Virus record (IMG/VR): IMGVR_UViG_3300048838_000259
Span: 1 to 35,367 of that record
From: a virus
DNA length: 35,367 nucleotides
Strand: one strand, 5' to 3'
A model generated the notes under the pieces. The model was not told the origin of the DNA. It worked only from the letters and a program-made list of their open reading frames with translations, and did no database searches. Positions within the stretch are counted from its first letter, which is position 1; each line of letters begins with the position of its first letter. Below, in pieces: positions 1,533 to 26,524 of the stretch. Made by a program: the position numbers and the translations under genes.

Positions 1533-3346
1533 CAATACTCCACGTGTGCCAAAAGCACCCATTTAGTTAGCCCGGAAGAATAGAAATAAATATACGAACT
1601 CACGTCGCCGGAGGTCGTACCGACTGCCGGGATCGTCCCGCTGAATGTGTCGCCCGCCACAAACTGGGCGTTCCACGCGAGCGTGTAGACGCCCGCCGCC
1701 TGCGTGATGTGGAATACGATCACCTGTCCCTCGAACGGCGTGCCGCTCGTTGCCGCGATGGTCGTATTCTCGCTCAGGGTGTGCGTGAACGTCTGGGCGT
1801 TATCCGAGTTCCACGCTACGCTGTTCGTCGTGCTGGTAACCGCCACGGGCGTCTGTAGAATCGTGCGCACCTGCAATTCGGACAGCGCCGTAATATCGCC
1901 GGTGCCCGCCGATATCGCGCGGCCCGCGATAGTGTTCTGCGCGATCTGCGCGACGTTCGCAAGCGGGAGGTCGCCCGCGACTTCGGCGGTCGCGAGGTCC
2001 ACCGCATTCGACGTGCTGCCCGAGCCGACAAACAGCGACGCGGTCAACGTGTCTGATACCTGCGCGTCCGTGAGTCCGGTGCCAACCGCCGCAGCGGGCA
2101 GCGTGCCCGTCACATCGGCAGCCAGGTCTATCTGCCCGCGCGTAATCGTCTGGCCCGATATCGTGATGTAGTCCGGCGTCCCGGCCAGCGACACGTCGCC
2201 GGTGTTCGTGCCGTTTATGCTGGTGGTTCCCGCTACCGTGATAGTGTTGCCCTGGATACTGGTGAGGTTGGCGAGCGTATCAATCGCCGCCTCGATGGTG
2301 GCTTCGGTTTCGGTGTCGAGAGCGTCAACATCGTTAAGCGTGAGCGTGCCCGCGCTGTCGGTGAAAATATCCACCGCGCCGAACGCGAGCTTGCCCGAGG
2401 CCGCTATCACCAAGGTATCGTCCGTGGTGTCGAACGTGAGAGCGGAGTCGCCTTCGATAGTACCGTCGCCGGTCCAGACGCCGATCTGCCCGTCCGCCGG
2501 GGTGCCGACTTTCGACACATCGCCCGAGCCGGAGGGCGTCGCCCAGGTGCCGTCGCCGCGCCAGAACGTGGATGCGCTCGCGGACGTGCCGCTGTTCAGG
2601 TTCGCCACGGGCAGGTTGCCCGTCACGTCCGCCGCGAGGTCGATAGAGCCGCGCGTGATGGTCTGGCCTGATATCGTGATATAGTCCGGCGTGCCCGCCA
2701 GCGACACATCTCCCGAGTTCGTGCCGGTAATATCCGCGTTGCCGCTCAGGGTCAGTGTGCGGTTGCTATCGCCGGTCGTAATAGTCAGCGTCCGATCCGC
2801 CGCGAGGTCGGAACCGGGCGAAATAATCAGGTCGTGGCTCGCGTTGGTGTCGAGGATATGCAACCCGGCAACAGGAAACGTGAGGCCGGAGGTAAGCGTT
2901 GCGCCATCGGTGATGCCGCCGCCCGCGCCAAGGATATCGTCGATGTCGAATTTTTTCAGCGCGTCCCCGTCGCTGTCATCGGTGCCGATAATAAAATCGC
3001 CCGCCACAGGCGTCACCTGTGACAGGCTGGTGATTGTCGAGCTGGTGAAGCTGCCGCCGCTGCCAAGTACAGTATCCGTTCCTGCATCGTCCGTGAATAC
3101 CAGCACGTTGGGCGTCGTGTTATCCACCCAGAGATACCCGAAGCCCGCAGCGGGCGTGCTGCTGTGGTCAGCCTTCTCCGTGAATACCACGTCGCCGAGG
3201 CCGGTGATCTCCACCGTTGTAGTGCTCGGGTTTGGCCCGATCTTGATGCCGTTAAACCGCTGCTGCGCATAGGCCGCCAGCGCCACCGTTAGGAGTATGG
3301 CTAGCCCGATGCCCGCGCGCGGGTTGAATGGGGTGGAACGGTTCAT
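1532..3346 (-). CDS. Tail-fibre-like repeat protein with N-terminal signal sequence
   Basis: A 604-residue protein. Residues about 11-28 ([18 protein letters not shown]) form a hydrophobic signal or anchor segment preceded by two arginines. The body is Ser/Thr/Gly/Asp-rich and beta-prone, as in phage fibre shafts. It has an internal duplication: a block with [20 protein letters not shown] followed by [19 protein letters not shown] occurs twice, about 170 residues apart. The segment [12 protein letters not shown] is a common fibre motif. The C terminus (about 500-604) looks like a compact domain with [20 protein letters not shown]. By position and composition it is a receptor-binding or side fibre. 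A Sec-like leader is unusual for such a protein, and the hydrophobic segment could instead be a trimerisation or membrane-docking element. Confidence 0.8.
2111..2212 (-). repeat. Fibre-gene internal repeat, copy near 3' side
   Basis: About 100 bases inside the 604-residue fibre-like gene are closely repeated about 512 bases away at 2623-2726. Both copies encode the [20 protein letters not shown] module with flanking DLAADVTG. Third-position changes between copies show it is not a recent perfect duplication. Confidence 0.7.
2623..2726 (-). repeat. Fibre-gene internal repeat, copy near 5' side
   Basis: Partner of the copy at 2111-2212, in the same frame of the same gene. Amino acids are better conserved than bases, so the shaft module is probably under protein-level selection. 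Confidence 0.7.
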
Positions 3347-3355
3347 AAAAAACTC

Positions 3356-4333
3356 CTATGCTTGATCCGTTAGGACGGAGGCGAGATCGATATAGATGCG
3401 GGCAAGTAAATACAGCATACGTGCCCGTTTTGTTCCAGGGGATGAAAAAGAAAATGGCACAGTGCTAGGTTCAGTGGTAGTAATCTCGCAATCAATACTA
3501 CCACCGCCAGCCGCCGGAGTATCAGCACCGCTTGATTCACGCCATATATCTGTTGCTGAATGCGCGGCGGGCATTGAAAATGAAGCGCTTCCGATACTGT
3601 ATGCAACATCTATATCGGATTCATTAAGTTCCTGCATTCGATAACCGACACCTACAGATGTACCTAAAAATCCAGTAGACGGAAACAAAATACCGTAAAC
3701 GCCGGTTTGTATGCCTGCATCATATGACGGTGTCATATCACTACTGCGCACCATCAGCCATAGACCGCCAAACGCCGTAAATGTTGGTGTTCCCGCTGGA
3801 TTATCTCCGCGCGCGTCCCATGCGTCTTGTTCAGTGAAATACGTAGCGGGTAATGTTCCACTAGAAGTACCCGTAACGCTAGTATGATCAAGGGTCACAC
3901 TCGCCAGTGCGTATATCAGCCGGTCTAGCGCGTCTTGCATCGCCTGCCAGTAACGTTCTTCCTGTGGGCGTATCGGGTCCGCGTCGAGGTCCGCGCCGAT
4001 AGCCGTTTCTAAATTTGCCTTCGTCCATAGGGTTGCAACACCGCTTGACTCCGTAAATTTTCCAGATGCCACCATCGCCAATATCGCGTCCCGAATTTTC
4101 TTCAAATTCAGAAACGCATAGCTATTCGCACCGGTCGCGCGAATTCCGGCAAGGTCCGCACTCAACAAGTCCGCCGCAAGCGTACCGTCCGCTTTGTAGA
4201 ATTGCGTTTTTGTAATACCGACAGCGCCTTGCCGCTCATTCACGGCGCGGCAAAGCTCAAACATCGCAATGCGCGCGTTACTGGGCGAACCGCCCATGTA
4301 GGTGCCTGCATATGTCGGTATTGTCCAAGCCAT
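3356..4333 (-). CDS. Putative minor tail/baseplate protein, unknown
   Basis: A 325-residue protein beginning MAWTIPTYAGTYMGGSPSNA. It is not recognised. The first half is helical (FELCRAVNERQ, LKKIRDAILAMVASGKF, ERYWQAMQDALDRLIYALA) and the second half is strand-rich with Ser/Thr/Gly, ending in another helix (LYLLARIYIDLASVL). No signal peptide or catalytic motif is visible. It lies between the Tal-like gene and the fibre-like gene, three bases after one and nine before the other. About 3400-3950 is visibly AT-richer than its neighbours, which may mark a recently exchanged host-range module. A structural role is inferred from position. Confidence 0.8.
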   Translation of the reverse strand: MAWTIPTYAGTYMGGSPSNARIAMFELCRAVNERQGAVGITKTQFYKADGTLAADLLSADLAGIRATGANSYAFLNLKKIRDAILAMVASGKFTESSGVATLWTKANLETAIGADLDADPIRPQEERYWQAMQDALDRLIYALASVTLDHTSVTGTSSGTLPATYFTEQDAWDARGDNPAGTPTFTAFGGLWLMVRSSDMTPSYDAGIQTGVYGILFPSTGFLGTSVGVGYRMQELNESDIDVAYSIGSASFSMPAAHSATDIWRESSGADTPAAGGGSIDCEITTTEPSTVPFSFSSPGTKRARMLYLLARIYIDLASVLTDQA

Positions 4334-19128: not shown

Positions 19129-19525
19129 GCTGTATAGCCTCCATGTAGGTGGCTACGGCTTCGTCGGCTGAGATAGCGGGCTGGTACGGCTGTGTGCCGT
19201 CCGGGGTAGTGGGAGCGATCTTCGTCGCGCCGTCCCAGCCTTTGAGCTTGGCGAGCCTATCAGCGGCCTTGATGGAGTCCGCATCCGAACCGCCCAGCAT
19301 AATTTGCGTCATACGCTCGCACGTCTGTTCGTAAGTCGCGATGCTCGCGGACTGGACAGACGCGCGGAGTCTGGATAGCTCATCTATGATGTTAACGTTC
19401 GCTAACAACCGGGAAGCTTGCTCATTCGCTGTTCGTGGGGAGTAACCCGCCCGCGTGGCTGCTTGTGTCCCGTTCGAGTCCTTGAGGTACTCGCGGACGA
19501 ACGCGGCCTGTTTCGGTGTGAGCAT
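19106..19525 (-). CDS. terS: Terminase small subunit
   Basis: A 139-residue protein starting MLTPKQAAFVREYLKDSNGT then QAATRAGYSPRTANEQASRL, the helix-turn-helix of the terminase_2 family that recognises packaging-site DNA. A helical oligomerisation part (about 55-95) follows, and a Pro/Thr linker with a C-terminal helix (DEAVATYMEAIQRAV) would contact the large subunit. It overlaps the 42-residue gene by TAATG and the large subunit by 23 bases. Confidence 0.93.
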   Translation of the reverse strand: MLTPKQAAFVREYLKDSNGTQAATRAGYSPRTANEQASRLLANVNIIDELSRLRASVQSASIATYEQTCERMTQIMLGGSDADSIKAADRLAKLKGWDGATKIAPTTPDGTQPYQPAISADEAVATYMEAIQRAVSTRG

Positions 19526-19653
19526 TAGACGGTGGCCAGTGCTGCGGCGGCCACGAGGGCGAGCGCGCCGAACACGGTTATCAGGCAGCCTGCGCCCATG
19601 ACGCCGCAGCCGACGGCGGTGATAGCGTGGCCGGGGTTCTGGTTGTTGTTCAT
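19525..19653 (-). CDS. Small single-pass membrane protein, 42 aa
   Basis: A frame of 42 codons: a polar start MNNNQNPGHAITAV then a Gly/Ala-rich hydrophobic stretch (VMGAGCLITVFGALALVAAA). It has a good promoter upstream, and TGAGG lies before the ATG. Its TAA overlaps the terS ATG (TAATG). It is therefore the first gene of the structural transcript. It carries small-residue G-x3-G spacing, which favours helix packing. No lysis gene was seen elsewhere in this window; a pinholin or superinfection-exclusion role is speculation. Confidence 0.65.
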   Translation of the reverse strand: MNNNQNPGHAITAVGCGVMGAGCLITVFGALALVAAAALATV

Positions 19654-19683: not shown

Positions 19684-19711
19684 AGTATAGCACATCTGGC
19701 GGCTGAGGCAA
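19684..19711 (-). promoter_or_regulatory. Extended -10 promoter for the structural operon
   Basis: On the minus strand, TTGCCT (19711-19706), a 16-base spacer and TATACT (19689-19684), preceded by TGC, form an extended -10 sigma70-like promoter. It lies between the end of the HTH-D5 gene and the 42-residue gene. Confidence 0.65.
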
Positions 19712-19719
19712 GGGCGCGG

Positions 19720-20154
19720 TTAGGCGTCCAGGAATTGGATGCCCGTGTAATAACGTTTACGGACTCCGTTTTTGCTTTCTCTGTAGTCGTATAATTCTGG
19801 AAAATAGTTTCTGATGGCCATACCAAATACCGCAATTGTTACAGGCCGGACACCTTTGTCCTTCGCCCATTCGGTGTAGGCTTTGTAAAGTTCGCTGCGC
19901 AAAATCATACCTTCGGAATCGATAGTGCATCGTTCTTTAAAAAAGTCGAAGGTGTCGATTTTTGTAACAACTCGATTCTGTGCCAAATATTTGTCGATAT
20001 CTTCAATAGCATATCGGATGCTTTTTTCCCCGATGATAAGGTATGGAAGATTCTGAATTGTTCCTGAGCTTTTCGATTTTCGCCGCCTTGATGCGAGGGT
20101 TTGTTTCGACAATCCCAAGATGTTTGCGGCCTCTTCTTCGGTTACTAACTGCAT
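19720..20154 (-). CDS. Excisionase-like HTH fused to D5 primase C-terminal winged helix
   Basis: A 144-residue protein. Residues 1-60 (VTEEEAANILGLSKQTLASR then RKSKS, ending DIDKYLAQN) are an HTH_17/MerR-excisionase-like domain. Residues about 68-142 (FFKERCTIDSEGMILRSELY, AYTEWAKDKGV, DYRESKNGVRKRYYTGIQF) closely match the end of the 760-residue primase (FIEDRCTLD, LYAAYLEWATDEG, DYRAKNYGARTRYYTGI), the Pox_D5-like winged helix. It lacks ATPase and primase domains. It has a perfect AAAGGAGG site eight bases before ATG and a consensus promoter with a dyad in the spacer. The gene is AT-richer than its neighbours, suggesting transfer. It is likely a DNA-binding regulator of replication or late transcription; no such fusion is known to me. 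Confidence 0.85.
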   Translation of the reverse strand: MQLVTEEEAANILGLSKQTLASRRRKSKSSGTIQNLPYLIIGEKSIRYAIEDIDKYLAQNRVVTKIDTFDFFKERCTIDSEGMILRSELYKAYTEWAKDKGVRPVTIAVFGMAIRNYFPELYDYRESKNGVRKRYYTGIQFLDA

Positions 20155-20162
20155 AAAAAAAA

Positions 20163-20170
20163 CCTCCTTT
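20163..20170 (-). promoter_or_regulatory. Strong ribosome binding site
   Basis: AAAGGAGG on the minus strand ends eight bases before the ATG of the HTH-D5 gene and is followed by a run of T. It is among the strongest Shine-Dalgarno sites in the window, so the protein is probably made in quantity. Confidence 0.8.
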
Positions 20171-20180
20171 AGTTGAGGTA

Positions 20181-20210
20181 ATTATACATGGACTATGTGG
20201 ACGTTGTCAA
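20181..20210 (-). promoter_or_regulatory. Consensus sigma70 promoter with dyad in spacer
   Basis: Perfect TTGACA (20210-20205) and TATAAT (20186-20181) are separated by 18 bases on the minus strand. The spacer (20187-20204) consists almost completely of the pair CATGGAC-TAT-GTGGAC (read on the plus strand), so a protein bound to these elements would block RNA polymerase. It drives the HTH-D5 gene with a predicted start near 20174. Confidence 0.85.
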
Positions 20211-20259
20211 AAACAAAAGGGTCCACGTTGTCCATGCTATCCCTATATCTATCTTATAT

Positions 20260-20272
20260 AGCGTATTACGCT
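20260..20272. repeat. 13-bp palindrome in the control region
   Basis: AGCGTA-T-TACGCT is a perfect palindrome around one base, in the AT-rich part of the control region. The arms touch, so it is a better candidate protein site than an RNA hairpin. Confidence 0.5.
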
Positions 20273-20402
20273 TTTTATAAGTTATAGAAAAAGGTCTGTA
20301 CGAACATGGACCCTTGGACACAGCCTTTATTTATAGGGGTTTTCTGCATGTTCGGGGTCCAAGCAAAACTGGCGTTAGCGCAGACGCCGAAAACCGAACT
20401 AC

Positions 20403-20437
20403 GAAAAATAAGAAACCCGCCGCGCGGTTGCGGCGGG
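20403..20437 (-). terminator. Intrinsic terminator after the primase gene
   Basis: CCCGCCGC (20416-20423) and GCGGCGGG (20430-20437) form a perfect 8-bp GC stem with a six-base loop. On the minus strand it is followed by TTTCTTATTTTT. It ends the long DNA-metabolism transcript 32 bases after the primase stop. A weaker GGCGT/ACGCC hairpin followed by TTTT lies just beyond, at 20371-20388. Confidence 0.85.
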
Positions 20438-20469
20438 GGTCCAAGTAGGGGGTCCATGCTGATAACCGG

Positions 20470-22752
20470 CTACTCCAGCTTGATCCCGGTGTAATACCGC
20501 GTCCGCGCGCCGTAGTTTTTGGCCCGGTAATCGTCAATTTCGGCGCAGGCCGCGCGCAGTTGCTGGCCGAATTTTGCCTTTCCGTATGGGCGTGTGAGCC
20601 CCTCGTCGGTGGCCCATTCGAGATAAGCGGCATAGAGCGCGTCGCGCGCCACGGTGGCCTGCGGGTCGAGCGTGCAGCGGTCTTCAATAAACGCGGTAAT
20701 CGGTGCCGACACTGCGCGGAACCCGGCAAGGATAGCGCGTGACTCGGCTGGTTCAGTAAACCGCCCTTGGGTGGTGAGCCGTTGCAGGCCGTCCAGCGCC
20801 CAGTTAAGGATGCCGGGTAGTTCCCGCCGTATTTTGGACTCCAGGAAGCGGTCCTCGCGCCCGAGGTGTGATTGGGTGGTTTGCAGCATGAGCAGGCGGC
20901 CCAAAAGCGCGCCCGAGGCGTCTGTGAGGTTCGGCAGTTCGTTCGATACCATCTGAATTTTGAGGGGGATGTGGCCCGTCCAGTCCGGCTTATAGAGCCG
21001 CCGGACGGTTTGTTTATCGCCGCCCGACAGGGATAGCAGGCGTTCCACGATGGAGGCTTGATCGTTCCTCCGTCCCAGCCGCGCGTCGGCGATTATGGCG
21101 AGGCGCATGTCTATGAGCACTTGCCCGCCGCGCGCGTCCCCGAGGCTGCCGAGGGTGGGGTTGCAGGTGCTGTCCGGCCCCATGAGTGCTTCGAGGGTGC
21201 GCGATATGACACCTTTGCCTGAGCGCTGCGGTCCTATTATCCAGAGCATTTTGTGGTGTGACATATCGCGTGACAGGCAATAGCCGAACCACTCGCCTAG
21301 AAGGAGGGCGCAGTCTGCGCCGCTGTCACCCGGCCACGTGCGGGTGAGGAAGTCCACCCACGTTTCCGGGCTGTCCGCGTCCGGCGAATAGGCGAACGGC
21401 AGTGTTGAGGTTACGAAGAGCGCCGGGGTGTGCGGGATAAACTCGCGGCTGCTGTCGAGCCGTAGCAGGCCGTTGCGCACGGAGATCCATTCCGAGGCGG
21501 AGGGGCGCGGTGTGCCGTCCATCCAGAACGGTGCTTCCTGCCGGGCGGGTAGCATGCAGAGGCCGCGTAGCTGTGACATAACGTCGCGTAGTAGGCCGTC
21601 CTTCAGGATGCAGCGGACTGTTTTAAGTTTATCCGAGTCGTTGTAGTAGTGCCAGCGTGACAGGGTTTCCGAGAGTTGCCGGTGTAGGGCTTCCACGTCC
21701 AGCACGCGGTAGTGTGTGCGGTCGTAGATGTACCAGTCGCCGCGCCAGTAGCGGAGGGTCCTCCCAGGGTGCGTTTCTGAATTGAATTTTTCTGCGAGGT
21801 CGCGGGGCGACGGCGTCACCACGTAGTTCGGCTGGTCCGGGTCACCCGTTGAGTTGCTTGCCCCGCGCGGCGGCACGTCCGTCGGTATCTGCGGTGGTCC
21901 CGCGGTGCCGGTGCGCGGCGCGTCACGCCCGGCGCGTGGCGGTGGCACCGGCACCGGTTTCTGTCGCCCTGCGGTAATACCGGATTTCAGGGTAGCATGT
22001 GACTCGCGTTCCGGCAGGCCAGCGGCCACGGCGGCGGGTAGCAGCGCGTTAATGATTTCGCCGTCCGTGAGTTCGGTTAGGCGTGCGAGGGAGTAGGCTT
22101 CGCGGTTCAGCGTGGCGTTGCGTTCGCCTTCGGGCGCGGTGGTAACGGTTGCAGCCGCCCGTTGCAAGGCGGCGGCTACGTAGCCAGAACCCGGCGTGGT
22201 TGCAGGTAGCGGTAGCTGTGGCGCGGCGGTGTTGAGTTTGGCGGGCGGCGTGTTGATGGCGTCGATCACCCACTGCGGGAGGTCGGCCAGTTCGATTTCA
22301 TCTGGGGCGCGTCCCGGCATCCACTCATAGAGTGCGCCGGTATCAGCGTGAACGCTGCCCGGCGCCACGACTTGCCCGCCCTCGCCCCGCGTGTCGGTAG
22401 AGGCGTGGATATGCCGCGCGGTGTTGCCTACTCTCATCTTGGGCGTGCCCGGCGGCACGCGGTAGTACAGATGCACCCCGCCTCCGCCGGTTTGTGCCGT
22501 GATGGTAGGCGGCAGTCCCGGTGGCGCATCGCCGTCGCAGTCTACTACGAGCAGGCCGTTGCCGGTGCGGATGCCGATGTTCCCGTCGGCGTCGAGCCAT
22601 GCTTGGGCTTCATCGGCGGTGATGCCGGGCCGTTTTTGCCAGTCGCGCGCGATGGGCCGCTTGCCGGGTGATGGTCCTTTGTCTGCCGGGCCGGACAGTT
22701 TAATAAGCGGCCACCCGAACCGGATGGCCGCCTGAATCGCGTCGGTGGTCAT
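20470..22752 (-). CDS. Primase-polymerase / SF3 helicase with D5 C terminus
   Basis: A 760-residue replication protein. Residues about 1-190 are a bifunctional primase/polymerase (Prim-Pol) domain, with IGIRTGNGLLVVDCDGD (metal-binding aspartates), TAQTGGGGVHLYYRVPPGT and GEGGQVVAPGSVH. After a Pro-rich linker (about 265-310) comes a D5_N-like part and an SF3 helicase: Walker A IIGPQRSGKGVISR near residue 500, LAIIADARLG, and VSNELPNLTDASGALLGRLL. The last 75 residues are the D5-type winged helix ending RYYTGIKLE. It would prime and unwind phage DNA; the iteron cluster starts 14 bases beyond its stop. ATGA overlap with the methyltransferase. Confidence 0.92.
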   Translation of the reverse strand: MTTDAIQAAIRFGWPLIKLSGPADKGPSPGKRPIARDWQKRPGITADEAQAWLDADGNIGIRTGNGLLVVDCDGDAPPGLPPTITAQTGGGGVHLYYRVPPGTPKMRVGNTARHIHASTDTRGEGGQVVAPGSVHADTGALYEWMPGRAPDEIELADLPQWVIDAINTPPAKLNTAAPQLPLPATTPGSGYVAAALQRAAATVTTAPEGERNATLNREAYSLARLTELTDGEIINALLPAAVAAGLPERESHATLKSGITAGRQKPVPVPPPRAGRDAPRTGTAGPPQIPTDVPPRGASNSTGDPDQPNYVVTPSPRDLAEKFNSETHPGRTLRYWRGDWYIYDRTHYRVLDVEALHRQLSETLSRWHYYNDSDKLKTVRCILKDGLLRDVMSQLRGLCMLPARQEAPFWMDGTPRPSASEWISVRNGLLRLDSSREFIPHTPALFVTSTLPFAYSPDADSPETWVDFLTRTWPGDSGADCALLLGEWFGYCLSRDMSHHKMLWIIGPQRSGKGVISRTLEALMGPDSTCNPTLGSLGDARGGQVLIDMRLAIIADARLGRRNDQASIVERLLSLSGGDKQTVRRLYKPDWTGHIPLKIQMVSNELPNLTDASGALLGRLLMLQTTQSHLGREDRFLESKIRRELPGILNWALDGLQRLTTQGRFTEPAESRAILAGFRAVSAPITAFIEDRCTLDPQATVARDALYAAYLEWATDEGLTRPYGKAKFGQQLRAACAEIDDYRAKNYGARTRYYTGIKLE

Positions 22753-25882: not shown

Positions 25883-26082
25883 GGGCGGGTAATTTCACAG
25901 AGTTCGTCGAGTGACACGTAAAGCGCACGCGCAATTTTGATTAAGTTCTTCACAGATGGCACACGCCTTCCACGCTCGAAATGGTTGATAGCGGCAGGTT
26001 GAAGCCCACAGGCTTTTGCAAGATCGCTCTGCGTCATCCCTTGCCGCTCCCGCTCTTCTCGAATATTATTGGCGATGCTCAT
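25879..26082 (-). CDS. XRE-family HTH regulator
   Basis: A 67-residue, single-domain Cro/CI-type protein: SIANNIREERERQGMTQSDL then AKACGLQPAAINHFERGRRV and PSVKNLIKIARALYVSLDEL show the five helices of the HTH_3 fold. It would bind an operator as a dimer. It overlaps the macrodomain gene by 17 bases, so the two are co-translated. No operator was recognised next to it; it may act on a distant promoter or on a host system. Confidence 0.88.
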   Translation of the reverse strand: MSIANNIREERERQGMTQSDLAKACGLQPAAINHFERGRRVPSVKNLIKIARALYVSLDELCEITRP

Positions 26083-26524
26083 AGATCCACACCTCCACGT
26101 CGCAGTCCAGCCCGCCCAAGTGCTTCTCGTACAGCGGCCAGACGTCGGTCCAGTCCAGCCCGCCGCAGCCGCAGCCGAGTTGTGGGATGGCGATGGATGT
26201 AATATCGCGGACGGCAAATTCTGAGGCTAATTCAAACAGGCAAGAATTCACCCATTCAACTTTTGACGGATCGCGCCAATGTTTTTTGGTAGCGGCCAAA
26301 ATAACGTACCTCTCATGGGCGCACCAGTGGCGTGTTTCGCCCGGATCTATTTTGCTCACGCCTACTGATCGGCATAAGCTCGCGTACCACTCGAACATTC
26401 CCGGCCATCGCCGCTTAAACTCCAGCGCTAGCCCCTTGCCCATGACGCCGACGCAGTTCACGGGGCAGACGAGGACCTGGGCGGTGCTGTCGAAGATGCT
26501 GCCGTGTTTAAGAGTGATGGGCAT
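26066..26524 (-). CDS. Macrodomain protein, DarG-like ADP-ribosyl hydrolase
   Basis: A 152-residue stand-alone macrodomain. VLVCPVNCVGVMGKGLALEF and IPQLGCGCGGLDWTDVWPLY are the ADP-ribose binding loops. The exact PVNCVGVMGKGLA then GGLDW pattern is that of the DarG antitoxin macrodomain, which removes ADP-ribose from DNA. The phage has no DarT toxin in this window, so removal of host-made ADP-ribosyl marks (anti-DarT or related defence) is a reasonable inference. Start ATG 26524 overlaps the previous gene by 17 bases. Confidence 0.88.
   Translation of the reverse strand: MPITLKHGSIFDSTAQVLVCPVNCVGVMGKGLALEFKRRWPGMFEWYASLCRSVGVSKIDPGETRHWCAHERYVILAATKKHWRDPSKVEWVNSCLFELASEFAVRDITSIAIPQLGCGCGGLDWTDVWPLYEKHLGGLDCDVEVWIYEHRQ

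Follow-up and report, generated by a model that had tools for sequence, protein, structure and literature searches.

What does a phage gain from a small gene, placed between its primase gene and terS, whose product ends in the same type of domain as the primase itself? The question comes from a virus sequence of 35,367 bases, a whole record of IMG/VR, the entire length of which is called the window here. All genes discussed below lie on the minus strand (Table 1). On the right-hand side are genes for an SMC-like ATPase, a helicase, a VRR nuclease, a methylase, and a Cro/C1-type HTH protein, and the order continues with the D5-type primase, the small gene, here called the orphan, then terS, terL, and the virion genes. 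By our own reading of the sequence, positions 26066-26524 (minus strand) encode a macro-domain-like protein, directly followed by the Cro/C1-type HTH protein. A second, sister contig matches the window at every one of the 12,432 bases compared (100% identity) and also has the orphan gene.

Table 1. Coordinates of the features around the orphan gene in the window.
Feature	Position	Strand	Basis
Hydrophobic 42-aa ORF, candidate only, in the orphan/terS interval	19525..19653	-	sequence, context
Orphan regulator gene, 144 aa, ATG start, HTH_17-like part and RFX/Pox_D5 winged helix	19720..20154	-	ORF, Pfam
RFX/Pox_D5 winged helix of the orphan, residues 66-142, wing DYRESKNGVRKRYYTGI	19729..19959	-	Pfam, AF2, Foldseek
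HTH_17-like N-terminal part of the orphan, residues 4-61	19972..20145	-	Pfam HTH_17
Shine-Dalgarno sequence AAAGGAGG, ending 8 nt ahead of the ATG	20163..20170	-	read in sequence
Sigma-70 consensus promoter of the orphan, TTGACA-18-TATAAT	20181..20210	-	12/12 matches
Iteron pair 1, TGGACtatgTGGAC, in the promoter spacer	20189..20202	+	perfect TGGACn4TGGAC
Iteron pair 2, inverted, just 5' of the -35 box	20221..20234	-	perfect TGGACn4TGGAC
AT-rich stretch between iterons, candidate unwinding element	20240..20303		AT fraction 0.67-0.77
Iterons 5 and 6, TGGACCCTTGGAC	20307..20319	+	TGGAC scan
Iteron 7, GGGTCCA context	20357..20361	-	TGGAC scan
Hairpin resembling an intrinsic terminator, after the primase	20416..20437	-	sequence scan
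Iterons 8 and 9, GGGTCCAAGTAGGGGGTCCA	20439..20456	-	TGGAC scan
D5-type primase-helicase, 760 aa	20470..22752	-	Pfam: Prim-Pol, D5_N, DUF5906, Pox_D5
RFX/Pox_D5 domain at the primase C-terminus, wing DYRAKNYGARTRYYTGI	20476..20703	-	Pfam, alignment to the orphan

The initial annotation had described the orphan as an HTH joined to the C-terminal part of a primase whose primase and helicase domains were lost. Pfam searches bear this out, as Prim-Pol, D5_N, and helicase domains, all present in the adjacent primase, were not found in the 144 residues, and the C-terminal part matched RFX_DNA_binding (E 4e-10, 40.6 bits, cut-off 27) as well as, above its cut-off, Pox_D5 (E 1.1e-6, 29.4 bits, cut-off 21.4). 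Residues 4-61 are probably an HTH_17 domain (E 8e-6, 26.5 bits, half a bit short of the cut-off of 27), and the orphan matched the excisionase/regulator family phrog_66 at 7e-4. AF2, run on an alignment that comprised 71 domains of related loci, predicted the C-terminal winged helix with a pLDDT of 94-98, and the HTH part with a lower confidence of about 47-80 per block; from the orphan sequence alone it gave a model of low quality (pLDDT 55), the fold search of which was uninformative. The top Foldseek matches of the predicted winged helix were RFX5 (E 2.8e-5) and RFX1 (E 4.3e-5), and it superposes on these human domains (rmsd 1.5 Å, 73 columns; TM 0.85 by target versus 1dp7), in keeping with an RFX-like fold that includes a beta-hairpin wing. 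Moreover, a profile made from the same alignment matched RFX5 (5e-10) and RFX1 (1e-7) among the PDB sequences, with P4 alpha (1ka8) as a weak match. Because of the Pfam, profile, and Foldseek matches, the C-terminal domain is an RFX-type winged helix that is common to orphan and primase. This relationship goes beyond the initial annotation, as do the iterons within the orphan promoter described below. The profile link suggests that the origin-binding domain of phage primases and the DNA-binding domain of human RFX5/RFX1 are of common descent, and a robust sequence link between the D5 domain and human RFX transcription factors is a further yield of the comparison. Like the orphan, as profile and fold matches indicate, eukaryotic RFX factors have a winged helix, with a wing that reads DNA and would do so in the orphan, but they are cellular transcription factors, and the RFX half-site differs from TGGAC. 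In the RFX1-DNA complex the wing is the base-reading element, which reads the major groove (PMC4333399).

Orphan residues 71-141 align with primase residues 688-759 at 33/72 identical positions (46%, E 5e-20), in agreement with the resemblance of the two C-termini seen at first. When the orphan was compared with 83 phage primase domains, that of the resident primase scored far higher than any other (167, next 117), and the wing is nearly common to both proteins, with DYRxxxxGxRxRYYTGI in each. In all IMG/VR contigs, a DNA pattern for the wing, YR-4-GxRxRYYTG, was found only in the sister contig, within its orphan and primase genes, and in one unrelated frame (L094), which is a chance match. 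The orphan domain had originally been called a copy of that of the primase. Here the homology stands, with the resident primase as best match, whereas a recent duplication is ruled out by the aligned codons, which share 55% of their nucleotides and have an equal third base in just 11 of the 33 identical residues, and by the uniformly low GC content. The latter is 43.0% in the orphan gene, whereas the window as a whole has 60.0% and the primase gene 64.7%, in line with the initial annotation, which had recognised a gene AT-richer than its surroundings; the first and second half of the orphan gene are alike in their high AT content, and GC3 is likewise far under that of the neighbours. The match between orphan and primase therefore either dates far back or reflects selection for the same DNA site.

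The 315-bp gap between primase and orphan (20155-20469) harbors nine copies of TGGAC, with 0.39 expected; shuffling the gap 2000 times gave at most four, and other stretches of equal size in the window have at most three. The two perfect TGGACn4TGGAC pairs are the only ones in the window, and together they make an 88% inverted repeat with arms at 20187-20202 and 20221-20236. In SaPI Rep and SCCmec Cch2, which are D5-type initiators, this C-terminal domain recognises short iterons located immediately 3' of the initiator gene (PMC7581432), and the iterons flank an AT-rich stretch. The gap has the same arrangement, with short iterons directly 3' of a D5-type initiator gene and an AT-rich stretch between them. 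What differs is that in SaPI and SCCmec the binding domain belongs to the helicase itself, and the available part of PMC7581432 describes no orphan regulator. From this anatomy and precedent we infer that 20155-20469 is likely the replication origin of the phage and TGGAC the iteron of its primase.

Such an arrangement is not restricted to this phage. A scan with the primase alignment gave 80 loci (L111-L190), the sister contig among them, in which the 500 bp that follow the primase stop codon were examined for a 7-mer commoner than in any of 100 shuffles. Such a 7-mer was present in 43 of the 80 loci, compared with 2/71 upstream of the primase and 2/74 in the region 1.5 kb farther downstream. 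Iterons 3' of D5 primases are therefore a family trait, and the motifs vary from lineage to lineage. As a practical rule for locating phage origins, the region just 3' of D5 primases can be checked for lineage-specific iterons. Across the relatives, similarity of the D5 domain goes along with similarity of the iterons (rho 0.18), but that of the helicase core does so equally (rho 0.17, both significant). Since shared ancestry cannot be separated here, the co-variation of wing and iteron is no evidence for wing specificity. GTNC occurs on one strand in 18 of the 33 distinct iteron 7-mers, with a background of 14%, a pattern that was noticed post hoc among loci that are not independent. RFX half-sites are also of the GTN type.

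With up to two mismatches to the sigma-70 consensus allowed, the promoter of the orphan is the window's sole site, and its full match of 12/12, together with a strong Shine-Dalgarno sequence, confirms the very strong expression signals postulated for this gene. Iteron pair 1 is located exactly within the spacer between the -35 and -10 boxes, and pair 2 just upstream of the -35 box. The low GC and GC3 and the lack of a recent copying event could also be explained if the orphan were a foreign AT-rich gene, or the primase remnant of a second replicon, caught next to the origin without a function for this phage. However, the ORF is intact and has a consensus promoter and a Shine-Dalgarno sequence, its best match is the resident primase, the operator pairs match the repeats of the resident origin, and the layout recurs in a second phage (see below). 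We regard this explanation as very unlikely.

We favor instead, with a probability of roughly 0.55 for the whole model, that the orphan is an autoregulated origin-binding protein, which shares the TGGAC iterons with the primase and lowers initiation. Its RFX/D5 winged helix would read the iterons, as the C-terminal domain of the primase is expected to do, and the orphan promoter would be off when the iterons are occupied by primase, orphan, or both. Replication would then supply new, free origins at which the orphan promoter fires, and the accumulating orphan protein would cover the iterons without bringing a helicase, leading to less initiation and to silencing of its own gene. TGGAC binding by orphan or primase, repression, the decrease in replication, and a link to late transcription are what we infer for this locus; within the model, iteron binding and autoregulation are the likelier part and the negative effect on replication is the less likely one. 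The model gives the HTH half no known target. The initial annotation had proposed that the orphan competes with the primase for one DNA site, and several features argue for this idea: the wing that is nearly common to both, the resident primase as best match of 83, the likely primase iterons inside the orphan promoter, and a second phage of the same pattern. A similar principle is known from papillomaviruses, where the E8^E2 and E2C repressors are short competitor proteins in which the DNA-binding domain of a replication/transcription factor is retained. These repressors derive from the same gene as the full factor, whereas the orphan is a separate, diverged gene. If the model is true, the DNA-reading domain of an initiator in a separate gene, expressed from a promoter that consists of origin repeats, would form a compact self-counting circuit, and the layout suggests an inbuilt brake or timer on phage DNA replication.

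A small regulator could also act by protein contact, such that the orphan heterodimerises with the winged helix of the primase and poisons it, like Cnr, the copy-number regulator of phage P4, which acts with gp-alpha. P4 resembles the present case by role only, as it has a small regulator and a primase-helicase with a winged-helix origin-binding domain; unlike Cnr, the orphan bears the initiator's own type of domain. The winged helix of gp-alpha is regulated by homo- and heterodimerisation (title of Yeo et al., 2002, cited in PMC10516667), which together with the weak profile match to P4 alpha speaks for protein contact. However, orphan and primase have in common the putatively DNA-reading wing, beyond the domain core, and iterons within the orphan promoter are best accounted for by DNA binding, which makes action by contact improbable.

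Scanning 84,980 species genomes gave no relative of the orphan. The one identical contig is the sole relative that came to light, and it was also the only record related by terL with an RFX domain. tblastn against phages and plasmids gave weak matches only, the labelled ones being primases or replicases. The fusion of HTH_17 to an RFX/D5 domain was found nowhere else in the searched sequences, and in this respect the former statement that no protein of this design is described still holds; it does not hold for stand-alone RFX/D5 proteins, since these are already annotated in Vibrio phages.

L160 (IMGVR_UViG_3300005613_000127; orphan of 113 aa) and L165 (261 aa) contain the two further helicase-free copies of the domain among the 80 primase loci. 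The L160 orphan is encoded directly upstream of terS, as in the window, and its own primase is its best match of 83 (score 109, next 89), while it scores just 51 against the window orphan, compared with 167 and 109 for the two orphans against their own primases. Upstream of it, an AT-rich core is surrounded by nine GGAC repeats, of which five read TGGAC (p about 0.001-0.002, which is approximate because the motif was chosen after the window had been seen), and its promoter-like site has TGGACA as -35 box. It differs from the window orphan in that it has no HTH_17 and its Pfam match is weak. L160 is absent from the 80 loci recovered using the terL of the window. This unrelated phage repeats the design of the window: a D5-type domain nearest to that of its own primase, located upstream of terS, with GGAC repeats and an AT-rich core on its 5' side. 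The L165 orphan, in which the D5-like domain occurs twice, shows no resemblance to its own primase and stays below the Pfam thresholds, and therefore lends this pattern little weight. In L165, positions 2701-3400 contain a dense GAACCTC/AGGTTCG array of about 20 copies in 400 bp upstream of the primase, possibly an origin on the opposite side of the primase gene.

Furthermore, stand-alone RFX/Pox_D5 proteins without a helicase, namely NVP1032O_90 and relatives, are present in 62 Vibrio phage records, one of which carries the annotation "RFX-type winged-helix protein". In the nine regions read, from phages of about 60 kb, the gene is located 2-3 kb downstream of a D5 primase. An AT-rich non-coding gap of 500-600 bp lies 3' of it (L102-L110), likewise 2-3 kb from the primase, and is a candidate origin of these phages; GTTACA is moderately enriched there in some phages and little in others. 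Like the window orphan, the Vibrio proteins combine a helicase-free domain near a D5 primase with an adjacent AT-rich gap, but they have another N-terminal part and no HTH_17, and the gap is on the 3' rather than the 5' side. Since the Vibrio phages carry it too, a stand-alone domain next to a D5 primase is an uncharacterised theme that recurs. The wing of the Vibrio orphans is unlike that of their own primase, and a common specificity is therefore no rule for orphans.

These comparisons also bear on a positive role, in which the orphan, as an accessory initiator, would mark or open the origin and assist in loading the primase-helicase. In L160 and in the Vibrio phages, the repeat-bearing AT-rich region indeed adjoins the orphan and is 2-3 kb away from the primase. 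However, the majority of the primase relatives possess downstream iterons but lack an orphan within 5 kb, so that an accessory is not generally needed, and the layout of the orphan promoter looks repressive. We consider a positive role to be quite unlikely.

The position of the orphan at the primase/terS junction, together with that of the L160 orphan upstream of terS, would fit a late-gene transcription factor, which is anchored to the iterons by its D5 domain while its HTH acts on the promoter ahead of the 42-aa ORF and terS, with late transcription following replication. A promoter-like site with an extended -10 is present at 19684-19711, ahead of the 42-aa ORF. However, no iteron cluster surrounds this site, as all nine clustered copies are at 20189-20456, and no annotated terminase genes follow the Vibrio orphans in the nine regions read; we hold such a factor to be rather improbable. 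For the preferred origin-binding repressor, a switch from replication to late genes, as the initial annotation had imagined it, is possible, which is derived from the position of the gene at the primase/terS junction. Tentatively, and with more doubt than confidence, the observations may be generalised: D5-primase phages would repeatedly capture a stand-alone form of their initiator's domain for origin binding, encode it at the origin, and use it as an anti-initiator, the iteron-built promoter would count free origins so that replication yields to packaging, and in the window the HTH would add a late-gene target. The stop of the 42-aa ORF overlaps the start of terS.
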